From positions 1 to 50,749 of the forward strand of contig JAIQEZ010000017.1 of NCBI GenBank assembly GCA_020073545.1: DNA of 50,749 nt, given 5' to 3'. Numbering within the stretch: the stretch's first letter is position 1; each line of letters starts with the position of its first letter. A program made the translations under genes and the position numbers. The notes under the pieces are model-generated. The model did no database searches. It saw nothing but the letters and a program-made list of their open reading frames with translations, and was not told the origin of the DNA. Shown here one piece after another: positions 2,549 through 42,240 of the stretch. The stretch is from Terriglobia bacterium. Its GTDB lineage: Bacteria > Acidobacteriota > Terriglobia > UBA7540.

Positions 2549-3577
2549 ATGCCGGATTTGATTCAGTCTGAAGCCGAACTGGAAGACTTGCTCTCCACGC
2601 CGAGCCCGGAAGACATCGCGCTCTTTCGCGAGTTGGAAGGCGACCTGCTGATTATCGGGGTGGCCGGCAAGATGGGTCCCAGCTTGGCGCGTCGCGTCGC
2701 GCGTGCCGCGCAGGCCGCCGGTGTAAAGAAGCGCATCGTGGGTGTCTCCAGATTTTCCAACCCTGCGGTGGAGCGTTTCCTTCAGCAAGCGGGAGTCGAA
2801 ACCCTGCGGGCGGATTTGCTGGATTCCAGCTCATTCGCCACCCTGCCCGACGCTCCGAACGTAATCTTCATGGCGGGGCGGAAGTTCGGCTCGACGGGCG
2901 CGGAGAGCCTGACCTGGGCGATGAATGCTTACCTGCCGGCGCTCGTCGCCGAGCGGTATCACCACTCCCGAATCGTTGCCTTCTCGAGCGGCAATGTCTA
3001 TCCGCTCGTGCCCATAGTCTCGGGAGGCGCCACCGAAGAGACCGCACCTGAGCCGCTCGGCGAGTACGCGCAGTCGGTGCTGGCGCGGGAGCGCCTGTTC
3101 GAACACTTTTCACGCTGCCACGACACGCCGGTCGCATTGCTGCGGCTGAACTACGCGACCGACCTCCGTTACGGTGTGCTGCTCGATATCGGCCGCAAGG
3201 TGTTCGAGGGCCGCAGCGTTGATGTCAGCATGGGAGCCGTCAACGTGATCTGGCAAGGCGATGCCAATTCCGTAGCGCTGCGAAGCCTTGCCCACTGCCA
3301 GTCGCCGCCCTTGATCTTGAACTTGACCGGGCCGGAGGCGCTCTCAATCCGAGCTGTGGCCAAGCGCTTCGGCGAATCCTTCGGCCAAGAGCCGATTCTG
3401 GAAGGTCAGGAGGCATCCACGGCCCTGCTCAGCAACGCCGGTCGTTGTCATCGCCTGTTTGGCTTCCCCTCCGTGACTGCGGATCAGATGATTACGTGGA
3501 CGGCGCACTGGATCAAGATGGGCGGTGCGACCCTCAACAAGCCCACGCATTTCGAAACACGGGACGGAAGATTTTAA
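2549..3577 (+). CDS. Atypical NAD(P)-binding SDR (epimerase/dehydratase-like)
   Basis: A 342-residue extended short-chain dehydrogenase/reductase-like protein. A Rossmann fold is indicated by the strand LLIIGVAGKMGP (residues about 33-44, a GxxGxxG-like turn), by ADLLD after strand 3, and by an AFSSGNVYP segment corresponding to the catalytic Ser/Thr strand. At the usual YxxxK position there is YAQSV, so the canonical lysine is absent and classical epimerase chemistry is doubtful. It is probably an NAD-dependent sugar or sugar-nucleotide enzyme, but the substrate cannot be read from sequence. The stop TAA (3575-3577) overlaps an ATG at 3577. The Gfo/Idh/MocA oxidoreductase downstream was probably its direct operon neighbour before a GIY-YIG cassette inserted between them. 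Confidence 0.82.
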   Translation: MPDLIQSEAELEDLLSTPSPEDIALFRELEGDLLIIGVAGKMGPSLARRVARAAQAAGVKKRIVGVSRFSNPAVERFLQQAGVETLRADLLDSSSFATLPDAPNVIFMAGRKFGSTGAESLTWAMNAYLPALVAERYHHSRIVAFSSGNVYPLVPIVSGGATEETAPEPLGEYAQSVLARERLFEHFSRCHDTPVALLRLNYATDLRYGVLLDIGRKVFEGRSVDVSMGAVNVIWQGDANSVALRSLAHCQSPPLILNLTGPEALSIRAVAKRFGESFGQEPILEGQEASTALLSNAGRCHRLFGFPSVTADQMITWTAHWIKMGGATLNKPTHFETRDGRF

Positions 3578-3884
3578 TGCCGTTCCAACCTATTGGGCCC
3601 ATGTTCTACACTTACGTTCTATTGAGCCGGAAGGACGGTCGATGGTATACGGGGTCGACGGGGGACCTCAAGGCTCGGGTCGAGGACCACTCGAAAGGGC
3701 GCGTGCAGTCCACACGACACCGGCGCCCGCTGGAGCTGGTCTACTACGAAGCCTGTCGGGCCGAGGACGACGCGAGGACGCGAGAGCGATACCTAAAAAC
3801 AGGCAGAGGGAAAAAGTATCTTCGGCAAAGGCTTCGAGTTTGGCTCCAGGAAAGCGTATCGAAATAGTTGGAACGGCACTAATG
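3577..3884. mobile_element. GIY-YIG one-gene cassette bounded by inverted repeats
   Basis: Left repeat TGCCGTTCCAAC-C-TATT (3578-3594) and right repeat AATAGTTGGAACGGCA (3863-3878) are inverted copies, 12 bp perfect plus 4 more after a one-base gap. Only the GIY-YIG gene lies between them, and its stop codon is inside the right repeat. TAATG occurs at both outer edges (3575-3579 and 3880-3884). Removing one copy plus the insert would leave TAATG, a stop/start overlap joining the SDR and the oxidoreductase genes. Confidence 0.6.
3601..3867 (+). CDS. GIY-YIG nuclease domain protein (UPF0213-like)
   Basis: An 88-residue single-domain GIY-YIG protein. It shows YTYVLLSRKDGRWYTGSTGDL (the first motif spaced as Y-V-L ... 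Y-T-G), then the conserved Arg of DLKARVEDH, followed by RPLELVYYEA and the Glu/Arg-rich RERYLKTGRGKKYLR. The family cleaves DNA or acts as a structure-dependent nuclease; the small single-domain members are mostly uncharacterised. I chose the ATG at 3601 because family members begin just before this strand. An alternative ATG at 3577 overlaps the SDR stop and has GGAAG upstream, giving eight more residues encoded by the left repeat. The gene sits inside inverted repeats and may be the mobility function of the cassette. Confidence 0.85.
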   Translation: MFYTYVLLSRKDGRWYTGSTGDLKARVEDHSKGRVQSTRHRRPLELVYYEACRAEDDARTRERYLKTGRGKKYLRQRLRVWLQESVSK

Positions 3885-4946
3885 ACACCAGGCAAACATC
3901 TTTCCGTGGGTTTTCTGGGCCTCAGCCATCTGCATCCGCCGAGTTACATGAACCTGTTCCAGGCCATCCCCGAGACTGCGGTGACGGCTGCTGCTGACGC
4001 CCATCCCGCCGTCCTGGAGGGCTTCGTCAAAGACTTTTCCGTGCGTGGCTACGCCGACTGGCGGGAATTGCTCGACCAGGAACGGTTGGACCTGGCAGTG
4101 ATCTTCCTTCCCCACGCCGATTGTCCCGACGCCGCCGTAGCCTGCGCCGCGCGGGGCGTGCACGTGCTGGTGGAAAAACCCATGGCCGCCAGCACCGAGG
4201 GCGTGCGCCGCATGATCGCCGTGGCCGAGAAGGCCGGCGTGATCCTCTCGACGCCTTACACTTGGCGTTACCACCCCGTCGCCAGGCACATGAAGAAGCT
4301 CGTTGAGGAAGGGGTCGCGGGCCGCATCGTGGGCTGCGAAGGCCGCTGGGCGGCGGGCCGTCTCTCACGCTACGTGGAGGGAAACGCTGGCTGGATGCTC
4401 GAGAAAGCGCGGAGCGGCGGCGGACCCATGTGCAACCTGGGCGTCCACTGGATCGACCTCTACCGCTGGCTGCTTGCTGATGAAGTCGTGGAAGTGATGG
4501 GCAAGACCGTGCGCGTCAACGAGCAGTACGACATCGAAGACAATTCCTTTGCGCTTTTGACTTTCTCTCGCGGAACCGTGCTCGCCCTCGACATCAGCTA
4601 CACCGTGCCGGGCTCTTACCCTTTTGGCCGTGACCTCTACCTCGCCTTGCGCGGCACCGCCGGCGTGCTTTCCTGGAGCGTCTCATTTGAGGGCGTCAAG
4701 GAGCGCTTGTTCGTGTGCAGCGACTCCGGCGAGTACTCCCAGCCCGCTCGCCAGCACCTCGATTTTGAACTCCCGCCGCAGCGCGGTTACGGAGGCGTCA
4801 TGGGGCATCGCTTCCTCTCGGACTTGGTGGAGTCGGTCCGCACGGACAAGCCACCCGCCATCACCGGACATGACGGTCTGAAAGCCCTGGAAGTTGTCGA
4901 GGCCATCTATCAATCGGCGGAGAGTGGCCGGAGTGTAAGACTGTGA
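3882..4946 (+). CDS. Gfo/Idh/MocA family oxidoreductase
   Basis: A 354-residue NAD(P)-dependent oxidoreductase. The N-terminal nucleotide-binding fold starts with VGFLGLSHLHP (residues 9-19), followed by the family EKP motif (LVEKPM, 96-101). The C-terminal alpha/beta domain has GVHWIDLYRW, matching the G-x-H-x-x-D active-site helix. Members oxidise or reduce sugars, inositols or biliverdin; the SDR upstream and the GH35 beta-galactosidase downstream point to sugar catabolism. The ATG at 3882 lies four bases after the right inverted repeat of the GIY-YIG cassette and has no clear ribosome-binding site of its own, consistent with translation formerly coupled to the SDR gene. Confidence 0.88.
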   Translation: MTPGKHLSVGFLGLSHLHPPSYMNLFQAIPETAVTAAADAHPAVLEGFVKDFSVRGYADWRELLDQERLDLAVIFLPHADCPDAAVACAARGVHVLVEKPMAASTEGVRRMIAVAEKAGVILSTPYTWRYHPVARHMKKLVEEGVAGRIVGCEGRWAAGRLSRYVEGNAGWMLEKARSGGGPMCNLGVHWIDLYRWLLADEVVEVMGKTVRVNEQYDIEDNSFALLTFSRGTVLALDISYTVPGSYPFGRDLYLALRGTAGVLSWSVSFEGVKERLFVCSDSGEYSQPARQHLDFELPPQRGYGGVMGHRFLSDLVESVRTDKPPAITGHDGLKALEVVEAIYQSAESGRSVRL

Positions 4947-8215: not shown

Positions 8216-8652
8216 TCCCGATCTACAAGGTCCTCCGCATTAGACAAGACAGGCAGCCACAATGAGTGCTCTCCCCGTGCCGTTCCAACTATTTTCGGCT
8301 ACTGGCTTCGAACCATGCCCCCCTGGAGGCGGCGGCAAAACGGAGGGAAACATAGCCTCGTCAACAGTGCGTAAGTCGGGGTAATTCAGCCGGACATTTC
8401 ACGTGCTAATGGCAGCCCGCGTTTTTGATAGGACAAACGCGCGGGAACTGTGGTAGGATAGAACCTTCAGGGCGGAGTACCATGATAAGGATAAAGCATC
8501 CGGCAGCATTCCGCTGTTGTTGCCTCTAGGCAACGACACCTCACTTTTTCCAACACAATCCATTGACAGCAAAACGAGGTCTCCTTCGTTCAAGCCTCGG
8601 CAAGGGGGCGCTGGCGAAGGAACTTCGAAAATCTTCCGGAGGGAGAAAATCG
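8216..8652. other. Intergenic region with solitary cassette repeat
   Basis: No gene seen. It holds the repeat at 8277-8294, a hairpin at 8519-8534 (GTTGCC arms, loop TCTA), and a TTGACA at 8563-8568 that lacks a convincing -10 box at the right distance. Confidence 0.5.
8277..8294 (+). repeat. Solitary copy of the GIY-YIG cassette end
   Basis: GTGCCGTTCCAACTATTT, identical to the reverse complement of 3862-3879, the right end of the GIY-YIG cassette. No GIY-YIG gene is next to this copy. Confidence 0.7.
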
Positions 8653-41730: not shown

Positions 41731-42240
41731 TCATGCCCGATACCCCATCGGCAACTGCACATAGTCAATCTGGATGGGGCACGCCGCTACCGTCGCCTTG
41801 TCCAAAGCAAAATTGCTGTAACTCGACCACCGCCAATCTCCCGGCCGCTCGACCAGGCCTTTCCGGACGGGATTCAGGTGCATGTATTCCAGGCGCTCCT
41901 GGAATTCCCTTTCGTGGCGCACAAAGCGATCCCAAAACTGGTGTTGCCAGAGCGGTCCCCGGCTCCCCCGCCGGGCGTGAAGCCTCAGCGTCGTGATCTT
42001 TTTGGCGTCGTGCAGCACTTGCCCGATCAGCAGCGGATACCGTGGCCAGATCAGGGCGTGCCAGTGGTCGGGCATCAAGACATAGCCGCAGAGCATAAAC
42101 CCCAGCCGTCGCTGCGAAGCCTCCAGCACGTCAACGATCAGCGCGTATTCGGAATCGCTGAATCGCCTGATCCTCGGCCGAAGGTTCACGTTGACAAAGA
42201 AGATGCGGTCCGTGAGGCGCAGACGGTGAATGCGTGACAC
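41731..42240 (-). CDS. REP-associated tyrosine transposase (RAYT, Y1 family)
   Basis: 169 residues of the TnpA-REP/RAYT group within the IS200-like Y1 transposases. LCGYVLMPDHWHALIWP (about 50-66) holds the metal-binding His-x-His pair (59 and 61), and LEYMHLNPVRKGLVERPGDWRWSSY (about 117-141) contains the catalytic Tyr119 and the group's hallmark. Known members cut and join single-stranded REP hairpins carrying a GTAG-type foot. Here matching GTAG hairpins with identical 10-bp stems lie on both sides of the gene in inverted orientation. The enzyme seems complete. Confidence 0.92.
   Translation of the reverse strand: MSRIHRLRLTDRIFFVNVNLRPRIRRFSDSEYALIVDVLEASQRRLGFMLCGYVLMPDHWHALIWPRYPLLIGQVLHDAKKITTLRLHARRGSRGPLWQHQFWDRFVRHEREFQERLEYMHLNPVRKGLVERPGDWRWSSYSNFALDKATVAACPIQIDYVQLPMGYRA

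Follow-up and report, generated by a model that had tools for sequence, protein, structure and literature searches.

A putative minimal insertion-sequence-like element with a GIY-YIG nuclease as its sole enzyme, and its short gene-less relatives

Within the window, by which we mean the whole 50,749-nucleotide stretch of Terriglobia DNA that was analyzed, a gene for an NAD-dependent epimerase/SDR (positions 2549-3577, plus strand, ending in TAA and with orthologs in congeners) is followed by one for a Gfo/Idh/MocA oxidoreductase (3882-4946, plus strand, with its ATG at 3882). Directly behind the SDR stop and directly before the Gfo/Idh start lies a unit of 301 bp (3578-3878), or 309 bp when the outer 4-mers TTAA and CTAA are counted, whose inverted ends, TGCCGTTCCAAC.. 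and ..GTTGGAACGGCA, enclose one intact gene. This sole gene of the unit (3601-3867), on the plus strand like both of its neighbors, encodes an 88-aa GIY-YIG nuclease. The inverted repeats which the initial annotation had placed around a lone GIY-YIG gene are real: the left terminal repeat, TGCCGTTCCAACCT, occupies 3578-3591 (plus strand) and is imperfect, and the right one, TAGTTGGAACGGCA, occupies 3865-3878 (plus strand). Since the open reading frame runs from ATG at 3601 to TAG at 3867, the nuclease stop falls inside the right repeat, as had been described. On the outer sides stand the two copies of the likely target site, neither assigned to a strand: TTAA at 3574-3577, which was read from the sequence and includes the SDR stop TAA (3575-3577), and CTAA at 3879-3882, the final A of which begins the Gfo/Idh ATG. 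The motif TAATG is present at both edges, as previously noted, but it is partly built by the element, in that the TG of the left ATG (3577-3579) is the element's own first two bases while the TG on the right belongs to the host. That left ATG, for which the target supplies the A and the element the TG, lies in the reading frame of the nuclease, and its use would yield a protein of 96 aa, MPFQPIGPMFYTYV.... The perfect 18-base end copy reported at 8277-8294 was also recovered (GTGCCGTTCCAACTATTT, minus strand); it corresponds to the right end and has no clear partner end nearby. Across the window, the end 16-mer with up to 3 mismatches gave 3 matches versus 0.21 expected, a number reached by 0 of 100 shuffles.

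The open reading frame matches GIY-YIG alone in Pfam (PF01541, 50 bits versus a cut-off of 22.6 bits, E 3.7e-13), and residues Y3, Y16, R26, H30, and E62 were invariant among 35 aligned proteins; membership in the GIY-YIG superfamily is thus met by both the domain and the conserved catalytic residues. AlphaFold2 returned a confident single domain (pLDDT 93.8), and a fold search placed it near Slx1, At-HIGLE, UPF0213, and I-TevI with Z under 8, which is support for the fold only. The best sequence match to a solved structure was 1zg2 (E 2.8e-7). There was no match in NCBIfam or PHROGs, and no relative was found in plasmid or phage collections at E 1e-5. A group I or II intron was considered as a separate candidate and rejected, as the locus spanning the window element (L031) gave no Rfam match at the gathering threshold and so no catalytic intron RNA. 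At the elements in general, Rfam identified no RNA family.

Comparison with close relatives supports the reading of this unit as an insert. In three congeners (G003, G004, and G005), the orthologous SDR and Gfo/Idh genes meet in a direct TGATG junction, SDR stop fused to Gfo/Idh start, and the insert is absent. The genome to which the window belongs (G000) carries a second GIY-YIG copy with the same ends (C179:7092-7334), which is shortened, contains a stop, and is decayed. A search for the same flanks together with a GIY-YIG gene, which the initial annotation had proposed, showed that the unit recurs at an unrelated site in another genome: the closest named relative, L066 (MEKR01000141.1, an Acidobacteria MAG, genome G040), holds a protein with 69% identity between CTAGGGCCGTTCCAACTT and its perfect complement, carries the left repeat of the window unit, and has the same 309 bp length with outer 4-mers. 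The gene adjoining the L066 unit, named from its translation, is carA; the insertion sites are in unrelated genes, with the window copy sitting in the SDR-Gfo/Idh pair. In all three cases (the window, the C179 relic, and L066), the only genes found between TGCCGTTCCAAC-type ends encode GIY-YIG proteins.

Collecting further copies of the repeat, as had also been suggested, revealed many that lack the gene. In G000 (5.28 Mb, 261 contigs), a search for the end motif AGTTGGAACGGCACTAG that allowed up to 2 mismatches gave 69 matches, as opposed to 3 for a reversed control. Most of the 69 pair inward at a spacing of ~105-110 bp counting the outer 4-mers. These pairs delimit about 30 short, gene-less elements with a canonical length of 109 bp and the same ends as the GIY-YIG unit, including its left repeat. 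By their interiors they divide into several subfamilies, and their flanks are unrelated, as is expected of dispersal; they meet the features of MITEs in being short, gene-less, dispersed, and bounded by terminal inverted repeats (TIRs) common to a longer, gene-bearing element. Many of the short elements fold through their ends, and on 10 of 24 stop-ending sides they supply a TAG stop to the neighboring long frame, compared to 12 of 82 control frames. Six further genomes of the same family (G012, G015, G017, G018, G019, and G031) contain many copies; no other member of the window's own genus has more than one.

Well-resolved evidence for a target-site duplication comes from one of these short elements. 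At L024, the orthologous flanks in G008 preserve an empty site, ..CCAACTAGCTC.., with a single CTAG, while the filled site in G000 reads ..CCAACTAG-element-CTAGCTC.. and has two, demonstrating a duplication of 4 bp at this locus. The flanks of the window copy agree at 3 of 4 bases (TTAA, 3574-3577; CTAA, 3879-3882) and fit a duplicated (T/C)TAA with one difference; if the target was duplicated here, the likely length is 4 bp. Over 56 short elements, flanking 4-mers agree slightly more within than between elements (p 0.025), and there were 4 identical non-CTAG flank pairs compared with 1.1 expected (p 0.02); given the strong bias of the flanking 4-mer to CTAG, this test is only weakly positive. 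One related clade provides a second instance, with a TGAA duplication in 8 of 10 loci. These duplications coincide with start codons, the ATG being restored by the element's final base, and in 6 of the 8 TGAA loci the left ATG captured in this way shares the reading frame of the nuclease.

The arrangement extends beyond the Acidobacteriota. A strong flanking inverted repeat was observed at 28 of 76 loci of the GIY-YIG subfamily but at only 4 of 380 random control boxes. The consensus ACCCCGTTARATA describes the ends in Patescibacteria, Omnitrophota, Cloacimonadota, Deltaproteobacteria, and Verrucomicrobia. Among eight such genomes, 35 end-motif pairs face inward and 0 outward. Seven of the eight hold one, and only one, pair as long as a GIY-YIG unit (270-297 bp), with the remaining pairs measuring 28-171 bp. 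One genome, G205, has two GIY-YIG units that are 80% identical and 3 kb apart; these (L196 and L200, G205:C50) sit in the start codons of two neighboring genes, possibly of a defense-type operon. Bare 31-bp hairpins, consisting of two ends with almost nothing between them, were seen in an Omnitrophota genome (G050; C7:80900-80930, C24:5054-5084, and C24:13004-13034). Separately, another GIY-YIG subfamily (L042, L043, L044, L046, L050, L052, and L063) is flanked by a dispersed palindrome, TCATTCTGAGCGAAGCGAAGAATC, and variants of it.

The ends and the protein also vary together. Placed on a tree built from 80 proteins, the TIR label requires 5 changes versus 26.4 when shuffled, and end types group with clades while phyla are mixed within clades. 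End-sequence distance correlates with protein distance (r 0.44), a value reached in 0 of 2000 permutations. These comparisons are subject to the conditions that arms were read by hand from printed flanks, that seven labels were set by hand in the same way, that related rows are not independent, and that the tree is built on 82 columns. A sister set comprises 29 proteins labeled tRNA-associated, whose genes in most cases immediately precede an intact tRNA and are often accompanied by a duplicated part of a tRNA. At L032 (G000:C196), L036, L040, L041, L045, and L051, a lone GIY-YIG gene has a complete tRNA (or the 3' end of a tmRNA) on one side and an incomplete duplicate of it on the other, the tRNA identities having been judged by eye except at L032. 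At L080, L086, L090, L094, L098, L100, L110, and L112, the gene is directly upstream of a tRNA and behind a truncated copy of the tRNA 5' part, and the D-loop region of these truncated copies holds a palindrome resembling GCCCGCC..GGCGGGC.

Taken together, these results suggest that the window unit is a minimal insertion-sequence-like element whose sole enzyme is a GIY-YIG nuclease and which has MITE-like derivatives, a reading to which we assign a probability of roughly 0.6 and in which catalysis by the GIY-YIG protein is inferred. That the element is mobile is well supported, albeit by comparative evidence only, as no movement was observed. The role of the GIY-YIG protein as the mobilizing enzyme is an inference, and no transposition has been seen. 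In the mechanism that we propose, the protein, probably as a dimer, would recognize both ends and make a staggered cut in the target, which here is CTAG or TTAA-like and in the related clade is TGAA; host repair would then complete the joining, with the element either copied or moved, and the same protein would move the short elements in trans. Dimerization, movement in trans, and the route, whether by excision or by copying, are inferred just as the catalysis is. The element tends toward stop/start junctions, where its end bases rebuild or supply an ATG; with this and with the nuclease stop inside the element's own right end, the operon stays readable. A wider proposition is that there exists a cross-phylum class of ~300-bp IS-like elements whose entire transposition enzyme consists of a single GIY-YIG domain, with end motifs like ACCCCGTTARATA (TGCCGTTCCAAC here), a 4-bp duplication at start/stop junctions, short derivatives moved in trans, and a sister branch specialized on tRNA genes; we regard the odds for and against this generalization as even.

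Among the other explanations, the one that survives best, which we consider improbable but still in contention, is that the ends are those of MITEs mobilized by a different transposase and that the GIY-YIG gene is only a passenger which came to lie between two such ends. MITEs with unknown partners are common, and the six genomes of the same family that are rich in short elements yielded no detected GIY-YIG gene between these ends (MAGs 66-96% complete). This absence is the main weakness of the IS-like reading, and a different mover is not excluded; moreover, the interiors of the short elements have not been shown to derive from the GIY-YIG unit, and the weak flank test over 56 elements and the one-base difference between the 4-mers of the window copy also count against the reading. 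MITEs do commonly lose their autonomous copy. A passenger is nevertheless difficult to reconcile with the finding of GIY-YIG genes alone between these ends in the copies read, with the recurrence of the one-gene pattern under other end sequences in many phyla, and with the way in which the end sequence tracks the GIY-YIG clade. Additionally, none of the Y1-transposase loci examined (30 of 52 Y1 matches, in 8 genomes) carried these ends as a pair, although that search was limited to the Y1 type.

We see a poorer prospect for a free-standing homing endonuclease gene, whose GIY-YIG product would cut an allele lacking the gene so that homologous repair copies it in. In its favor, the GIY-YIG fold is one found in homing nucleases, and the sister set next to tRNA genes with duplicated tRNA pieces looks site-specific, but the TIR-bounded set is found at many unrelated genes and has inverted ends, 4-bp duplications, and gene-less derivatives. 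A single conserved target with homologous flanks is not met when L066 lies beside carA and the window copy in the SDR-Gfo/Idh pair. Of the two descriptions offered in the initial annotation, "homing-like or IS-like," the latter accordingly fits better, and the former is disfavored on the same grounds.

Slighter still is the case for repeats of the REP/REPIN or TIRtron type that depend for their movement on a Y1 (HUH) tyrosine transposase, for example RAYT or TIRYT. TIRtrons have been described in Acidobacteria (PMC3733652), Y1 genes are present in these genomes, and some of the related elements are bare hairpins of 28-31 bp; however, RAYT and TIRYT elements encode a Y1 protein where the window element encodes GIY-YIG, and the window-type ends are not self-palindromic REPs tagged GTAG. 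A weak match to a Y1 transposase domain was noted in the window at 41926-42144, distant from the element (PF01797, E 8.3e-5). Finally, the idea of a resident operon GIY-YIG gene with accidental inverted repeats, for which the imperfect left repeat is the sole point in favor, is refuted by the empty congeneric sites, the genome-wide end copies far above control, the matching L066 unit in another genome, and the 76-locus control test.

The classification of prokaryotic transposable elements rests on a small number of transposase chemistries, namely DDE, HUH, tyrosine, and serine, and we know of no GIY-YIG transposase. The window unit has the appearance of a minimal mobile element of a kind not yet named, and its categorical novelty rests on the inference that the GIY-YIG enzyme is the mover. 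If that is true, a GIY-YIG-only element would add another transposase chemistry, with one of the smallest enzymes and one of the shortest units, and would provide a source for dispersed short repeats without a named origin in uncultured Acidobacteriota, Patescibacteria, Omnitrophota, Cloacimonadota, and Verrucomicrobiota. Such an element may also shed light on how GIY-YIG nucleases came to act in homing and to form part of Penelope-like retroelements. With 88 residues and two 14-bp ends, the system is small enough for a direct test.

The initial annotation knew of no named element of this form, and the literature likewise gave no description of a TIR-bounded GIY-YIG element, within a coverage that left out preprints and most subscription papers. 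Several known systems nonetheless share parts of its organization. To our knowledge, no flanking repeats have been described for lone GIY-YIG proteins of the UPF0213 type, and the window gene differs from these in belonging to a repeated unit. What they have in common is a single GIY-YIG domain (PDB 1zg2, 1ywl) in the fold class of Slx1, HIGLE, and I-TevI. GIY-YIG genes have been reported in insertions of CPR rRNA genes which are not group I or II introns and were judged to be outside a homing context (PMC11270868); those insertions differ in lying inside rRNA genes, and the parts of that report considered here mention neither terminal repeats nor matching short derivatives. Among transposable elements with GIY-YIG, the portion of a review considered here names only the eukaryotic Penelope-like elements (PMC5718144), where, as far as that portion goes, the nuclease similarly serves a mobile element; these are, however, eukaryotic and have a reverse transcriptase, none of which is encoded in the window element. 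TIRtrons/TIRYT and RAYT-REP systems resemble the window element in combining small repeats, either bounded by TIRs or palindromic, with a nuclease gene, and some occur in Acidobacteria, but they encode a Y1 HUH transposase (PMC3733652), and a Y1 gene flanked by the repeat was not met here in the loci examined. With insertion sequences and their MITEs, the element shares TIRs, a single gene, short derivatives that keep the same ends but have no gene, and many unrelated sites; a short target duplication, clear at L024 and in the related clade, is a further likeness that the window copy itself shows at only 3 of 4 bases. The criterion of terminal inverted repeats is therefore met and that of a known transposase type is not, and since no such type is present, membership in any named IS family fails. 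In place of a DDE, HUH/Y1, tyrosine, or serine transposase, the window element has an 88-aa GIY-YIG protein as its sole product, and it is ~300 bp long, whereas insertion sequences usually measure 0.8-2 kb (PMC3733652).
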